The notes under the pieces were generated by a model. The model was not told the origin of the DNA. It was given only the letters and a program-made list of their open reading frames with translations, and ran no database searches. From Minwuia sp. (GTDB taxonomy: Bacteria; Pseudomonadota; Alphaproteobacteria; Minwuiales; Minwuiaceae), in assembly GCA_029210175.1 (NCBI GenBank), contig JARGPL010000001.1:1-64000 (forward strand): a DNA stretch of 64,000 nucleotides, written 5' to 3'. Positions within the stretch are counted from its first letter, which is position 1. The number at the start of each line of letters is the position of its first letter. Positions 161 through 9,425 of the stretch are shown piece after piece. Position numbers and translations under genes: made by a program.

Positions 161-1837
161 ATGGTGACAGCCGTCGAAACGATGGCCCGTCCGCAACGGT
201 GGTCTACGCCGTTCGGGCCGGACATGACCGATCAGACCGTCGACGAGCTGATGACGTATCCGATCTTCGGGGAGATTGACGAGGATCGGTTCCCGGCCAA
301 CACATCCCTGCGCGGGATCCTGGCCTACGACACCCGGGTCATCAACTTTCAGCCCGGCGATATCGTCGTCCGCGAAGGTGACTACGGCAACTCCGCGTTC
401 CTCATTCTCGACGGCAATCTGCGCGTGGTCATCACGCCCGACCTGCCGCAGAACCTGCTTGGCCGCGCCAGCGCTTCCAAGAAGGGTTTCTTCGAGGCAC
501 TGAGCCAGCTCTGGCGCAACTCCTGGCGACCGGAAGTCCGTGATCCCGATCGCTACAACAGCGCCAGTGCCCAGGTCCATGCGTCGCCATCTGGGGGCGC
601 ATCCTCCTTTCTTCAAGACATTCCGGTGATTCTCGACAAGCACCAGACCGCGCAACTTGGTCCTGAGATGATCTTCGGCGAACTTGCAGCGCTGGGGCGC
701 ATTCCGCGCACTGCGACGGTTTTTGCCGAAACCGAAGCGCGCGTGCTGGAAATCCGCTGGCAGGGGCTGCGTGAACTGCGGCGCTTCGACAATACCTGGC
801 GCACCAAGATCGATACCGCCTACCGCAACAATGCGCTGGGCAATGCACTGTCCGAATCGCCGATGTTCAAGCATCTGTCGCCTGACCAGTTGAAGCAGGT
901 TGCGGACCGGACGCTGTTCGAGACACACGGCGCGTTCGACTGGCACACCAGCTACAAGCGCATGCTCGCCCAGGGTCGCGAGATGGAACACGGCACGCCC
1001 ATCGCCAATCAGGGTGATTATCCGGATGGAATCCTGATGGTGCGCGCCGGTTTTGCCCGGGTCTCCACCAAGCTGGGCAACGGGGAGCGGACGCTGACCT
1101 ATCTCGGTGCCGGCGATTTCTTCGGTCTCGAAGAGCTCTATCATGCCTGGAAGAACAATGATCCAGACATGGTGTTCCAGAGTTCCCTGACCGCGCTCGG
1201 CTACGTTGATCTGCTGCGCATCCCGCGCCAGGTGCTGGAAGAATTCGTCTTTCCCGACATGGCGCCGCCCCGGCGGAGCCTGCAGGACCTCGCGGGTGAG
1301 GAAATCAGTGCCGATGCACTGAAGGAATGGGCCGTGGGCCGCCGCTACATCAACGGCACCCGGTCCATGCTGATCGATCTCAATCGCTGCACCCGCTGCG
1401 ATGATTGCGTGCGGGCCTGTGCCTCGACGCATGGCGGCAACCCGCGGTTCGTGCGCCATGGCCAGACATTCGATCATTGGATGGTCGCGAACTCCTGCAT
1501 GCATTGCGCCGATCCGGTCTGCATGATCGGGTGTCCGACGGGTGCCATTCACCGTTCCATGCATGACGGCTCGGTTGTCATCAATGATGACACCTGCATC
1601 GGCTGCGGTACCTGCGCCGCATCCTGTCCCTATGACAACATTCGCCTGGTTCAGGTGGCGAACCTGTCGGGCGAGCCGCTGGTCGATGACGAGCACAAGC
1701 CGATCATGAAGGCCACGAAGTGCGATTTCTGTTCAACCAATCCGGGCGGTCCCGCCTGCCAGCGCGCCTGTCCGCATGATGCCTTGCGTCGTGTCGACTT
1801 CCGCGGTCCGGATCCGTTCAGGAGTCCGTATCAATGA
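161..1837 (+). CDS. Cyclic-nucleotide-binding / 4x[4Fe-4S] ferredoxin fusion protein
   Basis: This 558-residue protein has no signal peptide, so it should be cytoplasmic. Residues about 35-95 and 155-205 form one cyclic-nucleotide-binding domain split by a roughly 60-residue insert; it keeps the phosphate-binding cassette FGE (172-174) with RTA (183-185). A second, weaker domain spans about 230-365 and lacks the RTA. Residues 405-540 are a DmsB/HybA-like ferredoxin with 16 cysteines in four groups (410/413/416/420, 446/449/454/458, 479/482/485/489, 521/524/533/537), enough for four [4Fe-4S] clusters. Ferredoxins of this type pass electrons between a donor and a membrane partner. The stop overlaps the start of the next gene (ATGA), a membrane cytochrome b-like protein, which suggests a complex whose electron flow is gated by a nucleotide. 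The gating is inference. Confidence 0.85.
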   Translation: MVTAVETMARPQRWSTPFGPDMTDQTVDELMTYPIFGEIDEDRFPANTSLRGILAYDTRVINFQPGDIVVREGDYGNSAFLILDGNLRVVITPDLPQNLLGRASASKKGFFEALSQLWRNSWRPEVRDPDRYNSASAQVHASPSGGASSFLQDIPVILDKHQTAQLGPEMIFGELAALGRIPRTATVFAETEARVLEIRWQGLRELRRFDNTWRTKIDTAYRNNALGNALSESPMFKHLSPDQLKQVADRTLFETHGAFDWHTSYKRMLAQGREMEHGTPIANQGDYPDGILMVRAGFARVSTKLGNGERTLTYLGAGDFFGLEELYHAWKNNDPDMVFQSSLTALGYVDLLRIPRQVLEEFVFPDMAPPRRSLQDLAGEEISADALKEWAVGRRYINGTRSMLIDLNRCTRCDDCVRACASTHGGNPRFVRHGQTFDHWMVANSCMHCADPVCMIGCPTGAIHRSMHDGSVVINDDTCIGCGTCAASCPYDNIRLVQVANLSGEPLVDDEHKPIMKATKCDFCSTNPGGPACQRACPHDALRRVDFRGPDPFRSPYQ

Positions 1838-2652
1838 GGTCGTTGCATCGCGCCCTGATCTTTTTCTGGCTCCTCGCCATCGGCGGCTTCGCCTTTGTCA
1901 GCTGGAACGCCTGGCAGACCTGGTTGCACAATGGCGAACCGGCCATTGTCACCGGCTATACCCTTGCCGGTATCTTCGTTTTCCTGGCGCTGTTCAACGT
2001 CCGCAAGCGCCTCGCGATGATTCCGCTGGGGCGTGGCGCTTACTGGACGGCAGCGCACGGCGTTGCCGGAGCCTTTGCAATCGCAGTCTTCTTTGTTCAC
2101 ACCAATGGCGTCTTCTGGCCGGATGGTGCGTACGAACAGCTTTTTGCGGTTCTTTTCTATCTCGTCAGCATCTCGGGTATTCTGGGTTACTGGCTGCAAC
2201 GAATCCTGCCCAAGCGCCTGACCGACAATGGCATGGAGATCATCTGGGAGCGGATTCCGCATGAGCTCGCCGAAATCCGCGAGAAGGCTGAAGGTCTTGT
2301 GGAGGAAGCGGCCGACAAGGCGGCGTCCGACACGCTGGCGCAGTATTATGTGGAAACCCTTGCCTGGTTCTTCCGCCGGCCGCGTTTCATGTTCAGTCAC
2401 TTCTTTGGTGCCCAGTCCGGTCGGGCATGGATCCGTCGCGAGTTCACCGCGATGCGCCGTTATGTCGATGAGACCGAAGAAGGCTATCTGCGGCAGCTCG
2501 AAGATCTGGCGCAGATCAAGAACCGACTCGATTTCGCCTATTCGGTCAACGGGTTCCTCAAGATCTGGCTTCTTTTCCACGTGCCTCTCGCCGTCGGTAT
2601 ATTCCTGGTGATGATCTGGCACATCATTCTGGTTCATGTGTATCTGCTATGA
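1834..2652 (+). CDS. Five-helix membrane protein, probable diheme cytochrome b
   Basis: A 272-residue integral membrane protein with helices at about 7-28, 38-55, 72-90, 100-118 and 241-270, and a charged cytoplasmic or periplasmic segment of about 120 residues between helices 4 and 5. Helix 3 carries His75 and His89 and helix 5 carries His249 and His263; each pair is spaced H-x13-H, the arrangement used to hold two stacked b hemes in classical cytochromes b. A further His268 follows. The gene overlaps both neighbours by four bases (ATGA), so translation is coupled with the ferredoxin fusion upstream and the decaheme cytochrome downstream. The likely role is to move electrons across the inner membrane, perhaps with quinone. 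No family name could be assigned with certainty. Confidence 0.75.
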   Translation: MRSLHRALIFFWLLAIGGFAFVSWNAWQTWLHNGEPAIVTGYTLAGIFVFLALFNVRKRLAMIPLGRGAYWTAAHGVAGAFAIAVFFVHTNGVFWPDGAYEQLFAVLFYLVSISGILGYWLQRILPKRLTDNGMEIIWERIPHELAEIREKAEGLVEEAADKAASDTLAQYYVETLAWFFRRPRFMFSHFFGAQSGRAWIRREFTAMRRYVDETEEGYLRQLEDLAQIKNRLDFAYSVNGFLKIWLLFHVPLAVGIFLVMIWHIILVHVYLL

Positions 2653-4673
2653 TTACAGACTCTGATCGCTTCAGTTACCAGAAGAGCGCTTACGAGCGGC
2701 CGACATTTCCCTATGTCTGCGGTCGGGCCTGCGCGTTTGGCAAGCCCTGCAGTCGGGGCCCGAATTTCGATGGTTCGTGTGGCGGAACGACGGAGTGCAG
2801 TCCGTTCCAGAATGGCGACCGCTGGGAATGTCGCCGTCCGCCGAGCGCTGGCGGACCCTGTCAGGACGGCCCGCTGCCCGATGGCACGTGTTGCCAGAGC
2901 CATCCGCCCTGCAAGCCGCGCCCGTCAATGCGCCGCCGCCGCCAGCAGATCTCCTGGCTCATGGCGGCCTTCGTCGTTTCCGTGATCGCTGCCTTCCTGC
3001 ATTTCACGCCGGACTCCTTTGTCGGCGAAAAGGCAGCTCTTTCATCGATCCTGCCCGGCGCCCTGTCAGGCGCTCATTCCAATTTCGCGCTGGAAGAAAA
3101 AGGCTGTCAGGCCTGTCACGAGAACCACGGCAAGGGCGTTGTCGCCTGGGCCAATGCGCTCGTCACCAACCAGTCGGTGGGCGAGAGCTGCGTCGACTGC
3201 CACAGCTTCGGTGGCCCGACGATGTCGCCCCACAATGCAACCTTCACCGCAGCGGCGGGCGCGGCATTCAGCCTGAATTCGGCGAACGCCGATACCAAGA
3301 CCGACTGCGTCATGTGCCACACCGAGCACAAGGGGGAGGCGGCAAACATCGCGACCATGAAGGATGCGCAGTGCAACAGCTGTCATACGACATCGATCAA
3401 GGCCTTCGGCAAGGATCATCCGGCCTTTGGTGATCGCTATCCGCATGACCGCCGTCCGGCCATCGCGTTCGATCACGTCAGCCACTTCGCCAAGCATTTT
3501 CCGGAAAAGCTGGCCGCGGGCGAGACGCGTGGCTGTGTCGATTGTCATCAGATCGAGAAGGCCGGTCTGACTGTGCCGCCGGGCAGTTTCGAGCAGAATT
3601 GCTCCGCCTGCCACCTTGGCGGGATCGTCGATCGCAAACTGGCGATCCTGAACGTTCCCTACATGGAAGAAGATCCGTTCAATCGTGACACGGTCGCGGA
3701 ATTCTGCGCGCCGACCCCTGAAGAGGTCGAGTTGCTGCGCGAAGCGGCAAATTCCGGTGAACTCGAAGAGCTTGAGCCGGACGAGTACTTCTATGAAGAC
3801 AATGGCGACAACCTGCCTGCGGCCCTGGCCCTGGCACTCGGTGTCGCCGCCGATGATCCGGACGGATATCTGGATGCCATCGGTACGCTCTATCCGGAAC
3901 TGGCGGAAACAGGCGTCGACAGCCTGATGTCACGCCTGGAAGCGGTGCCGGGCAAGCACGACATTCCGGCCATGCTCGCCGGACTCGACGGTGAACTCCT
4001 GCGCCAGGCCGCATGCGCCTGGATGCAGAAAGTGGAATATGAATCGCCCAGCGAAGTGCAGGGCGGTGGATGGTCTTCGGACGGCCTTTCGGTGATGTAT
4101 CAGCCGAACGGTCATGCCGATCCGGTTGCACGGGCCTGGTTTGACTTCGCCATCAACGCCGAACGCGATGCCATTGCGGCAGAGGCGGACGACCTGGTGG
4201 TGGAACAGGCAGCAGCACTTGGCGGGCTGCTGACGTCGGACTCGGGACTTGGTAACTGCACGAAGTGTCACGCTGTGACCGAAGTCACCGACAAGGGTGG
4301 CGATCAGGGAGACACTGCAAAAGGTTTGTTGGTGGAATGGGGATATCAACCGGTGAATGATCGCCCCTACGTCAAATACGACCACAAGCCACACGTAAAT
4401 CTGCTGGGGCCGGGTACCCTTTGCGCCACCTGTCACAAACAGAACCCGGAGGCAGCGTTCGCCGCGTCATACAAGCAACACGACGCAACGAACTTTGCAC
4501 CTGGGTTCCTGCCGGTGGCGCAGGAGACGTGCTCTCAGTGTCATACTGAGGGTAAGGTCAAGCAGGATTGTCAGCTTTGTCATGAGTACCACCTGGAACC
4601 GGGATTCAATCGCACCATGGGCTTTCAACACCAGGCCCAGAGTGTGAAAGAAACCGGTAGGGAAGGAGGTTGA
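2649..4673 (+). CDS. Membrane-anchored decaheme cytochrome c with Cys-rich N-terminal domain
   Basis: This 674-residue protein contains ten CXXCH heme sites, starting at residues 153, 181, 220, 242, 296, 308, 537, 592, 628 and 641. Six lie in 153-312 and four in 537-645, separated by a heme-free acidic helical stretch (about 313-536). Residues 24-88 hold ten further cysteines that are not heme motifs, with an internal echo C-x2-GP-x2-DG-x-C (34-44 and 71-81). A run of four arginines (95-98) precedes one membrane helix (101-118), so the Cys-rich head should face the cytoplasm and the hemes the periplasm. It may receive electrons from the diheme cytochrome b encoded just upstream. The start overlaps that gene as ATGA. 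A cytoplasmic Cys-rich head on a multiheme cytochrome is unusual. Confidence 0.88.
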   Translation: MITDSDRFSYQKSAYERPTFPYVCGRACAFGKPCSRGPNFDGSCGGTTECSPFQNGDRWECRRPPSAGGPCQDGPLPDGTCCQSHPPCKPRPSMRRRRQQISWLMAAFVVSVIAAFLHFTPDSFVGEKAALSSILPGALSGAHSNFALEEKGCQACHENHGKGVVAWANALVTNQSVGESCVDCHSFGGPTMSPHNATFTAAAGAAFSLNSANADTKTDCVMCHTEHKGEAANIATMKDAQCNSCHTTSIKAFGKDHPAFGDRYPHDRRPAIAFDHVSHFAKHFPEKLAAGETRGCVDCHQIEKAGLTVPPGSFEQNCSACHLGGIVDRKLAILNVPYMEEDPFNRDTVAEFCAPTPEEVELLREAANSGELEELEPDEYFYEDNGDNLPAALALALGVAADDPDGYLDAIGTLYPELAETGVDSLMSRLEAVPGKHDIPAMLAGLDGELLRQAACAWMQKVEYESPSEVQGGGWSSDGLSVMYQPNGHADPVARAWFDFAINAERDAIAAEADDLVVEQAAALGGLLTSDSGLGNCTKCHAVTEVTDKGGDQGDTAKGLLVEWGYQPVNDRPYVKYDHKPHVNLLGPGTLCATCHKQNPEAAFAASYKQHDATNFAPGFLPVAQETCSQCHTEGKVKQDCQLCHEYHLEPGFNRTMGFQHQAQSVKETGREGG

Positions 4674-4675
4674 GG

Positions 4676-6451
4676 ATGTTGGACGCGTATGGGGGCCAGC
4701 GTGGAAACACGCAGTGGGCCCGTCTATTTCTATCACTGATCGCAGCTGTGCTGTTTCTCGGCATGTCGACGCAAGTCGATGCACAGGAAGCAACCGCAGC
4801 TGATGTGGCGCACACGGAGATCTTCTCGGAAGAAGTGTTCCCGAGCGCCTCGAAATGTGCGGCATGTCACGAGGAGATCTACAAGGAGTGGTCGTCTTCG
4901 AACCACGCCTATGCATCGATCTCACCCATGTTCCACAAGTTCGAACAGGCGATCACCAACCTCACGCAGGGTACCATCGGTACGTTCTGTGTGCGGTGTC
5001 ATCAGAGTGTCGGCACGACGCTGGGCGAAAGCCGGGCCGCGCCGCTCTGGGAACGCAGCCAAGTTTCACGTGAAGGTATCACGTGCATCACCTGTCATCG
5101 CGTGAAGGACACCTATGCCAAGGCCAACGGCGAACGCCGTATCGAGCCGGGCAAGATCTACTCGCCCGTCTACACGAACTCCGATGGCGAAGGCCTGAAG
5201 AAGGTTCTGGAAGACAAGAGCTTCTACCGCGTTGCAACCAACGAGGAAGAGCGTGGCAGCCAGATCCATACCGAGGTGGTGAAGTTCACCCAGATCTCCA
5301 AGTCGGAGTTCTGTGTCAGTTGCCATCAGGTGGCGGTGAACCTGGGCATCAAGCTCGAAGTCGTGTGGGATCAGTATCGTGACAGCCCGGCCAATGCGCA
5401 GGGTATCACGTGTCAGGAATGCCACATGGGCAAGGACCCCGGCGTGCCGAACGGCTACGCCCGTGGCCCGGCTGCGGTGGTGAATGGTGAGGAAATCAAT
5501 CCTGACCGCGTCCGCCACAACCATGCCTTCTACGGTCCTGGTTACCCGATTGCCCATCCGGGCATCTTCCCCCACAACCCCGCGGCAGAGAACTGGACCA
5601 TCAATGAATGGCTGCAGTTCGATTACCGCGCCGGCTGGGGCACGGAAGAGTTCGAGGAGAAGGTCTACGACGGCGAGATCGAAATCGAATTCCCGGAAGT
5701 CTGGGACAACGAGGATGATCGCTTCGAGGCACGTGAAATCATCGAGGAGAACATCGAGGGCCTGGAGTACAAGCGGGAACTGCGTCGTCAGGTCATGGAA
5801 AACGGCAGCCATCTTGATGGTCCGTTCTTCGACGGGACACCGGTTGCCGGCAAGGACTTCGACTTCAACTACCTCGTCACGAACACGAACTCGGGCCATA
5901 ACCTGCCTTCCGGCAGCCTGGGCGCTCAGCCGGAGATCTGGCTGAACGTCGCGCTGACGGATCCCGATGGCAATCGCATCTGGGAATCTGGTTATGTCGA
6001 CAGTGCCGGTGACATGGCGGACGTTCACTCGCAGGATGTGCAGGCGGGCAAGATTGCCCACGACGACCAGCTGTTCAATCTGCAGACGAAGTTCCTGACC
6101 AACAACGTCAAGGGCACGGACCGGGAAATGTTCCTGCCCGTGACCTTCGATGTTGATCAGCGTCCGTTCCTGCGTCAGCCCAACATTCCGACCACTGTGC
6201 TCAACCATCCTGCCTTCGTGCGGATGGAAGGTCGCTCGATCCCGCCGCTTGGCGATCGGGAAGCCAGGTACTCCGTGCCGGGTGAGTTGATGACCAAACC
6301 GGGGACATACCGTCTCTCGGCGCGGATGCGCAGCCGGGCTGAGCCGATCTACTTCATGCGCTTTGTTGGCGCCACGAAGGAGATGGAGCAGTCGATGAAC
6401 CAGTGGATGCTCGACATGCATCCCTACACGGTGGAGATCGAGGTCAAGTAA
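4676..6451 (+). CDS. Exported pentaheme cytochrome c, c554-like
   Basis: A 591-residue protein with an N-terminal hydrophobic segment (about 16-32) ending near VDA, typical of an export signal. Five CXXCH sites start at about residues 61, 105, 137, 213 and 246; the first (KCAACHEEIYKEW) matches the cytochrome c554 family. The C-terminal half is heme-free and rich in beta structure, with a GHNLPSG motif seen in C-terminal domains of several multiheme cytochromes. The ATG at 4676 is preferred over the TTG at 4670 because GGAAGGAGG at 4661-4669 is a strong Shine-Dalgarno at proper spacing. The gene begins two bases after the decaheme gene. The likely role is a periplasmic shuttle or terminal oxidoreductase; the substrate is unknown. 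Confidence 0.87.
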   Translation: MLDAYGGQRGNTQWARLFLSLIAAVLFLGMSTQVDAQEATAADVAHTEIFSEEVFPSASKCAACHEEIYKEWSSSNHAYASISPMFHKFEQAITNLTQGTIGTFCVRCHQSVGTTLGESRAAPLWERSQVSREGITCITCHRVKDTYAKANGERRIEPGKIYSPVYTNSDGEGLKKVLEDKSFYRVATNEEERGSQIHTEVVKFTQISKSEFCVSCHQVAVNLGIKLEVVWDQYRDSPANAQGITCQECHMGKDPGVPNGYARGPAAVVNGEEINPDRVRHNHAFYGPGYPIAHPGIFPHNPAAENWTINEWLQFDYRAGWGTEEFEEKVYDGEIEIEFPEVWDNEDDRFEAREIIEENIEGLEYKRELRRQVMENGSHLDGPFFDGTPVAGKDFDFNYLVTNTNSGHNLPSGSLGAQPEIWLNVALTDPDGNRIWESGYVDSAGDMADVHSQDVQAGKIAHDDQLFNLQTKFLTNNVKGTDREMFLPVTFDVDQRPFLRQPNIPTTVLNHPAFVRMEGRSIPPLGDREARYSVPGELMTKPGTYRLSARMRSRAEPIYFMRFVGATKEMEQSMNQWMLDMHPYTVEIEVK

Positions 6452-6472
6452 GGCCTTGGCCGGAAAAGGGTG

Positions 6473-6496
6473 CGGGGTGGCCGGCGGGCCACCCCG
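6473..6496 (+). terminator. Strong intercistronic hairpin (10-bp stem)
   Basis: CGGGGTGGCC, a four-base loop (GGCG) and GGCCACCCCG form a perfect 10-bp stem between the pentaheme gene and the outer-membrane protein gene. No U-run follows, so it may be an attenuator or an mRNA-stabilising or processing element rather than a full terminator. Confidence 0.6.
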
Positions 6497-6544
6497 TTCC
6501 ATCTCTGGTGTTAGAGGGGCTCCCAACGGGAGCAGGAGGGGAAA

Positions 6545-8059
6545 TTGAGTATTCTGAATCTCCGTCAAGTACGACGGTCGGTCGCGGGCTTCACAGCCGC
6601 TGCGGCGCTTACCGTTTTCGCCGGCGCGTCATTTGCCGCCGAAGATTACAAACCCAAGATGTCTGACAATGCCAAGCGCGTTCCGTTCCAGGAAAATGCC
6701 TTCGGCGGCGACCCGGACTATTCGCATGACGACTACGATATCCAGGCCCAGCTGGACATCTATGGCGGCAAGTCGGAAGTGGTCGCGCCGCGCCCGCTGT
6801 TCGAACTTGGCCGCAAGCAGTATGTGCCGGGCCAGTTGCCGGAACCGAGCACGGTCTTCGGTGAACTCAATCCGACCAACTTCGCCGTCCAGGCATTTGG
6901 TGACTGGCGGACAGCCGTTGCATTCAATGATTTCGGTGACAACGAGCTGGCGCAGATCGCCACGCGGCTGAACATCGACATCGACATGAAGTTCACGTCG
7001 ACCGAGCGTCTGCATGCCTTTATCCGGCCCATAGACAACGGCAAGGATTTCACCCGTTGCGAATTTGCTGGCGGCGACAAGAACGAGGGCTGTGAGGCGG
7101 AGTTCAACCTGAACCTGGAGACGCTGTTCTTCGAAGGTGATGCGGCGAACATCCTCTCCGGTATCACGGGCGACTACTACAAGACCGACCGTCCGTTCAC
7201 GTTCGGTTTCGTACCGCTTTTCTTCCAGAACGGTCTCTGGATGGATGATGCCATTTTTGGTGGCGCGTTCACGTTCCCGGCCCTGAATTCGCCGGACTTC
7301 GACATCACCAACATGGACTTCACGCTGTTCTACGGCTTCAACGACGTGAACAACAACGCCATCCGCGATCTCAGCGGTGGTGTGGCTGATCACAGCGTTC
7401 AGGTATTCGGCGCCCATGCGTTCATCGAAGCGCAGGAAGGCTACCTTGAACTGGGTTACGGCCTGCTGGATGCGGATGAAGACAAGATCGGCGATCAGGA
7501 CCTGCACAGCCTGGGCGTCTCCTGGACTGCACGATACAAGAACATCCTGTCTTATTCACTGCGGACCTATCTCAGCCATCAGAACCGCAAGGATGGTGGT
7601 CGTGACCTGGGCAACGGACTTGCCATTCTGCTGGAAACCAGCTGGATGACGCCGAAACCTTATACCTTGGTGCCCTACGCCAACTTCTTCTTCGGCCTGA
7701 ACCGTCCGCAGGCGCTGGCGAATGCCGAGGGTCTGCTGGTCAACACCGGTATCAACTTCGAGACGGATGGCCTCACGGGCTTCCCGTTGCTGGATGATAC
7801 CGCCGCCGATACATTCGGTGGTGCCATTGGCCTGCAGTACCTGTTCAACCTGGACCAGCAGCTGGTGGTCGAGGCAGCGACTGTTCAGAAATACGGTGCC
7901 CAGTCGAATATTTCCGGTGACCAGTACGCTCTGGGTGTGCGCTGGCAGCTGCCGGTTTCCAAGGCCTGGATCATCCGTGCCGATGCCATGTACGGCGTTC
8001 GTACCGGCGGGGACGAAAATATCGGTGGCGTCCGTTTCGAGGTACGTCGCAAGTTCTGA
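6545..8059 (+). CDS. Outer-membrane beta-barrel protein
   Basis: A 504-residue protein. The N-terminus has a basic start, a hydrophobic stretch and ASFA before AED, a typical signal peptidase I site at about residue 31. The mature part alternates polar and aromatic residues in the manner of transmembrane beta strands and ends in RRKF, the terminal phenylalanine expected for BAM-inserted barrels. The start is a TTG preceded by AGGAGGGG at 6534-6541. It is neither a clear MtrB/PioB homologue (those are about 700 residues with CXXC near the N-terminus) nor a standard trimeric porin. Two cysteines occur around residue 175-185. Its position after two exported multiheme cytochromes suggests a pore or sheath for electron exit or substrate entry. 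Family assignment is open. Confidence 0.8.
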   Translation: MSILNLRQVRRSVAGFTAAAALTVFAGASFAAEDYKPKMSDNAKRVPFQENAFGGDPDYSHDDYDIQAQLDIYGGKSEVVAPRPLFELGRKQYVPGQLPEPSTVFGELNPTNFAVQAFGDWRTAVAFNDFGDNELAQIATRLNIDIDMKFTSTERLHAFIRPIDNGKDFTRCEFAGGDKNEGCEAEFNLNLETLFFEGDAANILSGITGDYYKTDRPFTFGFVPLFFQNGLWMDDAIFGGAFTFPALNSPDFDITNMDFTLFYGFNDVNNNAIRDLSGGVADHSVQVFGAHAFIEAQEGYLELGYGLLDADEDKIGDQDLHSLGVSWTARYKNILSYSLRTYLSHQNRKDGGRDLGNGLAILLETSWMTPKPYTLVPYANFFFGLNRPQALANAEGLLVNTGINFETDGLTGFPLLDDTAADTFGGAIGLQYLFNLDQQLVVEAATVQKYGAQSNISGDQYALGVRWQLPVSKAWIIRADAMYGVRTGGDENIGGVRFEVRRKF

Positions 8060-8067
8060 TCAGAGTA

Positions 8068-8105
8068 GCCGTCCGGCGGGTTGCCATGCAGCCCCGCCGG
8101 ACGGC
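8068..8105 (+). terminator. Strong intercistronic hairpin (13-bp stem)
   Basis: GCCGTCCGGCGGG at 8068-8080 pairs perfectly with CCCGCCGGACGGC at 8093-8105 around a 12-base loop. It lies between the barrel gene and the reductase gene. There is no U-run, so partial termination or mRNA protection is as likely as full termination. Confidence 0.65.
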
Positions 8106-8141
8106 ATGATCTGACAGGGCGGGTTTCTGAAGGGGGACATA

Positions 8142-9425
8142 ATGGAATTCGGACTGGTCAATACCGCAGCATTCGCCGTGCTGGCACTGCTCGGGTTCTA
8201 TGTTCTCAGCCTGATCTACAACAATTTCCGGACAGCCGGGATCGTCGAGCGCGGCGTGCAGGAGGAAATCGGCTTCCTGCGCCAGAAGGTCGACCAGATC
8301 AAGGCTGTGCGGGAGTTCGACAAGCAGAAGAACGAGCTGTCCTGGAACGGTATCCGGAAGTTCCGCGTTCAGCGGAAGAACCCGGAAAACAAGGACATCT
8401 GTTCCTTCTACCTGCATCCGCATGATGAACGCCCGCTGCCGCCGTTCAATCCCGGCCAGTATCTGACGTTCAAGCTGGACCTGCCGTCCGGCAAGAAGGT
8501 CACGACCCGTTGCTATTCCCTCTCCGACAGCCCGCAGAGCGAATACTACCGTGTGTCGATCAAGCGCAATCCGCCGCCGAAGGATCCTGCCAAGGCGGAC
8601 GTGGGCAAGTCTTCGTCCAACTTCTTCCATGACAACATCAACGAGGGCGACATTCTCGATGTCCTCGCCCCGAATGGCGACTTCTACCTCGACATGCACC
8701 GCCAGACGCCGGTGGTGCTGATCGGTGGCGGTATCGGCATCACGCCGGTGCTGTCTATGCTGAATGCCATCGTCGAGTCCGGTTCCAAGCGCGAAACCTG
8801 GTTTTTCCTCGGGGTCCGCAACGGCAAGGAGCATGTCTTCCGGGAGCATCTGGAAGCCATCGATCGCGCCAACGAGAACGTGCATGTCCGCATCTGCTAT
8901 TCCGGTCCGGATGACACGGACGTGGAAGGCAAGGACTACCACCACAAGGCCCGTGTCGGTGCGCCCCTGTTCCAGGAAGTGCTGCCGTCCAACAATTACG
9001 ATTATTACTTCTGTGGCCCGCCGCCGATGATGGAAAGTCTGTTCCATGGTCTGCGCGAATGGGACGTGCCGGAAGGGAACATCCATTTCGAGGCCTTTGG
9101 CCCTGCCACCGTCAAGTCGAAGAAGTCCAGCGATACGCCGGACGCGGCCGCGGGTGCAGCCCCGGCAACCGGCTTCAAGCTGAAGTTCGTGCGTTCGGAG
9201 AAGGAAATCGTCTGGGACGGTTCTGCAGATACGATCCTGGATTTCGCCGAGGCCAATGACATCGACATGGACTCCGGCTGTCGTGCCGGTGCCTGTGGCA
9301 CATGCGTGACCGCCGTGCTGAAGGGCGATGTCAATTACGCTACAGAGCCGAGCGCCGAAGTGAACAAGGGCTCCTGCCTGACCTGCATCTCGGTTCCGAA
9401 GTCAGATATGGAGCTGGATGCCTGA
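8142..9425 (+). CDS. Membrane-anchored FAD/NAD(P) reductase with C-terminal [2Fe-2S] ferredoxin domain
   Basis: A 427-residue protein. Residues 5-28 form one membrane anchor, followed by a charged helical linker (about 35-65). An FAD-binding domain carries RCYS (123-126), an NAD(P)-binding domain carries GGGIGITP (195-202) and CGPPPMM (291-297), and after an Ala-rich linker (328-343) comes a plant-type ferredoxin domain with Cys380, Cys385, Cys388 and probably Cys415. NqrF of the Na+-pumping NADH dehydrogenase has the same parts and an N-terminal anchor, but there the [2Fe-2S] domain comes first; the order here is that of phthalate-dioxygenase-type reductases. It probably feeds NAD(P)H electrons to a membrane partner, plausibly the upstream cytochromes. 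Start ATG 8142 follows GAAGGGGG. Confidence 0.88.
   Translation: MEFGLVNTAAFAVLALLGFYVLSLIYNNFRTAGIVERGVQEEIGFLRQKVDQIKAVREFDKQKNELSWNGIRKFRVQRKNPENKDICSFYLHPHDERPLPPFNPGQYLTFKLDLPSGKKVTTRCYSLSDSPQSEYYRVSIKRNPPPKDPAKADVGKSSSNFFHDNINEGDILDVLAPNGDFYLDMHRQTPVVLIGGGIGITPVLSMLNAIVESGSKRETWFFLGVRNGKEHVFREHLEAIDRANENVHVRICYSGPDDTDVEGKDYHHKARVGAPLFQEVLPSNNYDYYFCGPPPMMESLFHGLREWDVPEGNIHFEAFGPATVKSKKSSDTPDAAAGAAPATGFKLKFVRSEKEIVWDGSADTILDFAEANDIDMDSGCRAGACGTCVTAVLKGDVNYATEPSAEVNKGSCLTCISVPKSDMELDA

Follow-up and report, generated by a model that had tools for sequence, protein, structure and literature searches.

The first 64,000 bases (positions 1-64000) of contig JARGPL010000001.1 from a Minwuia genome, the stretch analysed here and referred to as the window, contain near their start six genes, A to F, that belong to a real, conserved electron-transfer system which is undescribed or has barely been noticed. 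Judged from the encoded proteins, the system is predicted to be a multiheme chain across the cell envelope, with an unusual inner half linked to reduced nicotinamide adenine dinucleotide (phosphate), NAD(P)H, and possibly gated by a ligand. A preliminary description of the window had proposed six co-directional genes between positions 161 and 9425, and all six reading frames were indeed found open, on the same strand and tightly spaced, with A, B, C and D overlapping their neighbours by a few bases (Table 1). Genes were called from the longest open reading frames (ORFs) with overlap rules and no trained gene finder. The cofactor counts given in that description also held, as ten CXXCH motifs in C and five in D make up its 15 c-type heme sites, and its 16 ferredoxin Cys were counted in A, which has no CXXCH.

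The proposal that these genes form one set stood, but the true set is seven. In same-genus relatives a further gene, X, is the immediate upstream neighbour of A, with 199 bases between the two in one of them (locus L037). The window begins with a run of C at base 1 of its contig, and a search of the same genome with the L037 sequence located X at the end of a separate 44800-base contig (G000:C42:43780-44751), 93% identical to X of L037. The cluster is therefore most likely X-A-B-C-D-E-F, split by the contig end, and the four CXXCH of X raise the number of c-type heme sites in this seven-gene set to 19. The 22 C at positions 1-22 of the window are probably an artefact of the assembly where it breaks between X and A; near the corresponding place in the X-A gap of L037, a palindromic stretch was seen by eye. 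X of L037 matched the Pfam family Cytochrome_C554 (PF13435) at 47.9 bits, over the cut-off of 20.8, and X matched PDB entry 1bvb, the Nitrosomonas cytochrome c554, with an E-value of 1.3e-13 over profile positions 19-127. Besides this shared match, X is longer than cytochrome c554 and has a different set of partners.

Conservation of the set was assessed across genomes. In a scan of genome contigs with A, the best 80 of 397 relatives were kept; these loci were picked by A alone, and the profiles used for counting the other parts were built from the same loci. Amongst the 38 loci with at least 7.5 kilobases on either side of A, B and C were found in 38 each, F in 36, X in 35, and D and E in 33 each. 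All seven genes occurred together in 33 of the 38, which rules out a chance neighbourhood. Additionally, A, B and C were contiguous in 67/70 loci with sufficient downstream sequence, and X stood immediately before A in 62/68 loci with sufficient upstream sequence. The main gene orders were XABCDEF, DEXABCF (in Nitrospinota) and DEFXABC; in a few cases, D-E lay on the opposite strand. This variation in order argues for a shared function rather than an inherited position. The odd orders of L085, L106 and L143 may be effects of ORF calling or frameshifts.

Protein A joins two types of domain that point to ligand binding and electron transfer in one chain. No transmembrane (TM) segment was found in it, and it is thus placed in the cytosol. 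Over the curated Pfam cut-offs, it matched cNMP_binding (PF00027, 96.9 bits against a cut-off of 27.5) and several Fer4 models; the 25 NCBIfam matches listed out of 81 were all under their cut-offs. Its 16 Cys and cluster-motif matches are shared with the four-cluster ferredoxins NarH, DmsB and NrfC, from which A differs by its fusion to two cyclic nucleotide-binding (cNMP) domains. The phosphate-binding cassette of the first domain, FGELAALGRIPRTA, aligns by eye with the protein kinase A cassette. In its strict form, GEx8RxA, this cassette was present in 74/88 A sequences, and its Glu and Arg (GEx8R) in 87/88; ten of the 14 sequences without the strict form were inspected, and nine of these deviate solely at the last Ala. 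By prediction from these residues, A seems to have a functional site for a cyclic nucleotide in its first cNMP domain. A Thr follows the cassette Arg in 61 of the 74 strict-form sequences, and since a Thr at this position favours cyclic guanosine monophosphate (cGMP) in kinases, it may point to cGMP, as a lead only.

A second, distant form of these genes (A'B'C') was found at 12 loci in the sample of class genomes, with a longer A' of 785-859 residues. In locus L062, A' carries a pyridine nucleotide-disulphide oxidoreductase domain (Pyr_redox), cNMP and Fer4 in one chain by Pfam, and in Sphingobium herbicidovorans A' gave NCBIfam matches to a YpdA-type reductase, CRP and DmsB-type proteins in the same order; the flavoprotein part was scanned in these two. 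F was not found in any of the 12 A' loci, some of which end at contig edges. The fusion of a flavoprotein to A', together with no F having been found, ties NAD(P)H to A, and we take it as the strongest evidence that the partner of F is probably A itself. The preliminary description had left the inner end of the chain as either NAD(P)H or quinone; the fusion speaks for NAD(P)H, and beyond a general likeness of A and B to NarHI-type pairs, nothing was found that points to quinone. Both cNMP domains carry the strict GEx8RxA in 12/12 A'. In L062, L065, L071 and L156, the N-terminus of C' is FHA-like (the Pfam run covered L156) and replaces the Cys-rich domain of C, so that the membrane cytochrome seems to have exchanged one signalling or docking domain for another.

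In B, which gave no Pfam and no NCBIfam match at 0.1, four His (H75, H89, H249 and H263) are invariant in 48/48 sequences and in 76/76 of a wider set. They form two pairs, each 14 residues apart, and lie on helices in a confident structure model (predicted local distance difference test score, pLDDT, of 95.6). Two spaced His pairs on two helices are the pattern of two b hemes, one at each membrane face, and in line with the roughly two b hemes put forward in the preliminary description, B is predicted to be a diheme cytochrome b of a family without assigned kin. A profile search of the PDB with B returned four matches, the best with an E-value of 0.37. The loop between helices 2 and 3 has a mean net charge of +3.7 (76 sequences) and is for this reason probably cytosolic, which would place H75 and H249 near the cytosol and H89 and H263 near the periplasm.

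The TM segment of C lies at about residues 101-119 and is preceded by the cytosolic Cys-rich domain. C matched Cytochrome_C7 and Paired_CXXCH_1 over the Pfam cut-offs. In the N-terminal domain, eight Cys are nearly invariant (73-75 of 77 sequences of the first form), and a four-Cys motif is repeated twice in 66/75. This domain had no Pfam match at 0.01, and its best PDB match had an E-value of 0.1; it is a candidate metal or iron-sulfur (Fe-S) site.

D has a signal-like N-terminus, a reading frame without internal stop and ten Cys in total, all of which belong to its five CXXCH, and it matched Cytochrome_C554 over the Pfam cut-off. Five invariant His outside the CXXCH motifs for five hemes in D, and four for four hemes in X, argue that both proteins are electron carriers rather than open-heme enzymes. 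The NCBIfam model of ExtKL was matched by 38/39 D members far below its cut-off (NF040886, 51.1 of 250 bits, for the window protein). The structure model of D was middling (pLDDT 75.2), and several of its best Foldseek matches resemble beta-sandwich proteins. A plasmid search with D returned five weak records only. For E, the proposed outer-membrane barrel is backed by a C-terminal Phe in 54/58 relatives and in the window protein, and less so by Pfam, where its sole matches, OprB and OMP_b-brl, were both under cut-off; it had no NCBIfam match at 0.1, in a library that may hold no ExtI model. F was described beforehand as a reductase with flavin adenine dinucleotide (FAD), NAD(P) and [2Fe-2S] sites, and this was confirmed by NAD_binding_1 and Fer2 over the Pfam cut-offs and FAD_binding_6 slightly under. 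An N-terminal TM segment is followed by the FAD and NAD domains and then by the [2Fe-2S] domain. The nearest NCBIfam model of F is the nitric oxide (NO)-inducible flavohemoprotein, with 270 bits against a cut-off of 432.

Table 1. Positions of the genes and of selected features in the window
Feature	Position	Strand	Description
A	161..1837	+	558 residues; two cNMP-type domains and a DmsB/NrfC-like 4 x [4Fe-4S] ferredoxin, 16 Cys
Phosphate-binding cassette, first cNMP domain of A	674..715	+	residues 172-185, FGELAALGRIPRTA
Ferredoxin part of A	1361..1798	+	about residues 401-546
B	1834..2652	+	272 residues; five hydrophobic helices, predicted diheme cytochrome b
H75 and H89 of B	2056..2100	+	first invariant His pair, spacing 14
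H249 and H263 of B	2578..2622	+	second invariant His pair, spacing 14
C	2649..4673	+	674 residues; decaheme c-type cytochrome, one N-terminal TM anchor
Cys-rich domain of C	2718..2912	+	residues 24-88, cytosolic, tandem 4-Cys motif
D	4670..6451	+	593 residues; secreted pentaheme, C-terminal beta-sandwich, distantly ExtKL-like, TTG start
E	6545..8059	+	504 residues; outer-membrane barrel, C-terminal Phe, TTG start
F	8142..9425	+	427 residues; N-terminally anchored FAD/NAD(P) reductase, C-terminal plant-type [2Fe-2S] domain

Amongst known systems, the closest in composition is ext of Geobacter, which according to the available part of PMC5877670 has a porin-like barrel, the pentaheme ExtKL, 10-heme and 4-heme cytochromes, a cytochrome b and an Fe-S protein, and whose extHIJKLMNOPQS genes form a selenite and tellurite reduction cluster. 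What sets ext apart, as described there, is its Rieske protein paired with a cytochrome b, together with a 12-heme cytochrome and a rhodanese-like protein, whereas the set analysed here has the cNMP-ferredoxin, the unassigned diheme cytochrome b, the Cys-rich anchored decaheme and the NAD(P)H reductase. No Pfam match to a Rieske protein or a bc-type cytochrome b was found among the six window proteins at 0.1. Membership in ext was rejected on the missed ExtKL cut-off, the lack of selenocysteine in D and the different inner-membrane module. A Geobacter strain with extHIJKL only, a cluster without an outer-membrane cytochrome, reduced Fe(III) oxide to 52% and Mn(IV) oxide to 76% of wild type (PMC6148476, available part), so a set of this kind can serve extracellular acceptors.

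The Mtr, Pio and Omc conduits likewise combine multiheme cytochromes with an outer-membrane barrel, presumably joining the periplasm and the outside. As had been noted for the window before, the set does not match Mtr, Pio or Nqr: E had no MtrB/PioB match at 0.1 and no large extra decaheme was seen beside the main form, and F reached 91.7 of 295 bits with NqrF, the subunit F of Na+-NQR, and has its [2Fe-2S] domain at the C-terminus. NADPH oxidases and ferric reductases resemble the inner half in passing electrons from an FAD/NAD(P)H reductase to two transmembrane b hemes, held by two His pairs spaced 13-14 residues on two helices (14 in B). Unlike them, the present set has a separate flavoprotein, Fe-S proteins in between, c hemes after the membrane step and a B without a Pfam match. 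Membership in cytochrome b561 was also rejected, with no match of the window B at 0.1 and a match of Sphingobium B' below the cut-off.

No description of a cNMP-ferredoxin/cytochrome b module was found in the literature, in a search that left subscription papers mostly outside. The available part of a 2025 paper (PMC11995701) reports clusters of at least three multiheme cytochrome genes, with up to 12 hemes and an unclear role, in the Nitrospinaceae metagenome-assembled genomes (MAGs) OFTM368, OFTM387, OFTM6 and OFTM96, and describes no ferredoxin, cytochrome b or reductase with them. Three of these four MAGs are among our loci (L120, L126 and L102), and OFTM135, 142, 91, 181 and 191, whose Nitrospinaceae loci were also found here, are absent from the list in that part of the paper. 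Its authors may have noticed the same cluster in Nitrospinaceae. Gene X, the Cys-rich domain of C, the resemblance to ext and this possible mention in print had all escaped the preliminary description, whose overall reading was supported in part.

With a confidence that falls just short of even, we favour NAD(P)H-driven electron export across the envelope, under control of a cyclic nucleotide, with the acceptor located at the outer membrane or outside it. What was observed is the gene set, the cofactor motifs, the conservation and the fused variant; the order of electron transfer, its outward direction, the gating and the class of substrate are what we infer. F would take electrons from NAD(P)H through its FAD and [2Fe-2S] to the four [4Fe-4S] clusters of A, a step that the cytosolic Cys-rich domain of C would perhaps join. 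As in NADPH oxidases and ferric reductases, the two stacked b hemes of B would form the path through the inner membrane. On its periplasmic side, the anchored decaheme C would collect the electrons for the soluble X (tetraheme) and D (pentaheme). X and D would work together with the barrel E, and their acceptor, at the outer membrane or outside it, would most likely be a metal or metalloid. The flow would be gated by cyclic adenosine monophosphate (cAMP) or cGMP bound to A. This electron order is preferred because of the order of the cofactors and the topology of the proteins. Three points favour outward flow: the nearest models of F are NAD(P)H-consuming reductases, which run from NAD(P)H outward; electrons that move outward follow the membrane potential; and none of the window proteins was recognised as a subunit that could couple energy to flow in the opposite direction.

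A ligand-gated respiratory wire, in which cAMP or cGMP on the cNMP-ferredoxin directly switches NAD(P)H-driven export to the outer membrane, is possible but distinctly tentative; the same grade applies jointly to the undescribed diheme cytochrome b family, the new tandem 4-Cys docking or cluster domain and the spread between phyla that this proposal would include. Genes near the clusters were also considered, in 105 distinct loci that remained of 121 after the removal of 16 duplicates. An SpdA/CpdA-like phosphodiesterase, under the equivalog cut-offs, adjoins C' in L060 and in Sphingobium. A gene for a metallo-beta-lactamase (MBL)-fold enzyme lies 105-201 bp upstream on the same strand in 7/105 loci of both forms, and the enzyme that was scanned had a weak full-length match to a cyclic nucleotide phosphodiesterase, under cut-off. 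CHASE2 cyclase genes were found near 6/105 loci, with four of the proteins confirmed by Pfam and a weak match in L080 (31 bits) excluded from the count. Altogether, this neighbourhood is suggestive of a role for cyclic nucleotides.

Several observations weigh against the export reading and its gating. CHASE2 genes were present in 24/24 cluster-bearing genomes tested (of 44), with 66 matches, and being so common they say little when found near a locus. The scanned MBL gene had stronger partial matches to RNase Z, also under cut-off, and for the gene that follows C' in L061, no NCBIfam family gave a match. In A, the second cNMP domain seems by eye to have no cassette, and A of L059 has none at all. 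Foldseek searches of the PDB with the models of B and D returned nothing at E <= 0.001. The similarity of B to the NADPH oxidase SpNOX (8qt6; Z 7.3, 4.5 A over 144 residues) and to Dcytb (Z 6.9) falls in both cases within the band usual for unrelated helical bundles. Sphingobium B' matched cytochrome b561 (PF01292) with an E-value of 1.4e-4 and 22.1 of 30.1 bits, and B may thus have a remote kinship to that family. Five of the well-flanked loci are incomplete: in L147 and L155 (Nitrospinota) only A, B, C and F were found nearby, and L106, L113 and L152 are also without other parts. Apart from one 4-CXXCH protein (L059), no further multiheme cytochrome was found beside the main form, which leaves a crossing of the outer membrane by electrons putative.

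In the leading alternative, which we consider rather unlikely, the electrons stop in the periplasm: the porin E would admit an anion or small molecule, with selenite/tellurite or nitric oxide as candidates, and D (or X) would reduce it with electrons arriving through F, A, B and C. The resemblance of D to ExtKL is consistent with such a periplasmic reductase, as are that of X to cytochrome c554, which has NO reductase activity, and that of F to the NO-inducible flavohemoprotein. Geobacter without the porin ExtI showed less selenite and tellurite reduction, with Fe(III) citrate reduction not significantly affected (PMC5877670, available part), and a denitrification path is reported for Minwuia in the available part of PMC8879329. 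The invariant His outside the CXXCH motifs, however, equal the hemes in number in X (4) and D (5) and leave no evident open heme site, and D has no Cys beyond its ten heme Cys, unlike ExtKL, a predicted selenocysteine protein.

Import of electrons, with E, D, X and C taking them from a donor outside the cell or in the periplasm (Fe(II), Mn(II) or sulfur) and B, A and F delivering them to NAD(P)+, is improbable. Some carriers are Nitrospinota by record title, autotrophic nitrite oxidizers that must make reductant, and the chain has no obvious one-way step. In this direction, though, electrons would have to climb to the potential of NAD(P)H and move against that of the membrane; a subunit for ion pumping or electron bifurcation was not found among the six window proteins, and the reductases nearest to F run the other way. 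A quinol-linked module like NarHI made of A and B, with F as a separate or auxiliary reductase, is very unlikely. In its favour, A has the NarH/DmsB type of four-cluster ferredoxin and B conserves the polar K229 and D233 besides its His. Against it, no molybdenum subunit was found in the six proteins of the window, F is near A in 36/38 loci, a flavoprotein is fused to A in the other form and D233 is replaced by Arg in 8/9 B of the second form.

The outer-membrane electron conduits known so far draw on the quinol pool. If electron export as favoured here is true, NAD(P)H would be linked by this set directly to the periplasm or the cell surface, and a second messenger could control electron flow itself and not transcription alone. 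The cluster bears on an unassigned redox process in carriers that include Nitrospinota of little known physiology.

The nearest named relatives of the window are Minwuia records and strain IMCC3096. B was present in 7/7 same-genus genomes, the window's included, and in 0/2 from other genera of the family. In even draws that included the window's own genome, B of either form was found in 44/385 genomes of the class (E <= 1e-5) and in 30/397 genomes of the phylum that were at least 90% complete (E <= 1e-6). By record title, the best 80 relatives of A are mostly MAGs of Alphaproteobacteria, and other carriers belong to Nitrospinota, Verrucomicrobiota, Beta- and Gammaproteobacteria, Zixiibacteriota, Planctomycetota and Poribacteria; doubtful MAG titles, e.g., Chloroflexi, Asaia, Bordetella and Omnitrophica, were given no weight. 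The best relatives are mainly MAGs from marine, lake and groundwater sources with little known physiology. A tree of A was built from 77 sequences, i.e., the window and 76 of the 80 loci, with four loci lacking a long enough A frame. In this tree, the 13 sequences of Nitrospinota group together (100/99) and are nested in a larger set that also has 14 Pseudomonadota rows (97/97), which suggests transfer between phyla, depending on the root.

Recurring flanking genes included a thiamine pyrophosphate (TPP) enzyme, a glutamate-dehydrogenase-like protein (by eye) and neighbours specific to Nitrospinota, and these gave no hint of a substrate. Genes for the TPP enzyme and the MBL-fold enzyme lie together upstream in loci of both forms (L063, L081, L082, L092, L094 and L097).

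In L067 and L071, the interval from X to B holds no A. The genome of L071 has an A' at another place, and in that of L067 (93% complete, 450 contigs) a ferredoxin-sized fragment was the only match to A. The second form may have spread on plasmids. In Sphingobium herbicidovorans, A'B'C' (L156 10564-15739) is located on plasmid pMSHV, which is typed as conjugative, and of the 15 records listed with partial matches to A on replicons, 12 are from Sphingobium, one of which was opened. Near several loci of the second form there are genes for an HbpS-like protein, a barrel and a decaheme protein of very large size. In L065 (16099-19899) and L156 (17689-21675), very large multiheme proteins that contain LVIVD repeats adjoin a barrel and a protein that is HbpS-like or heme-binding.

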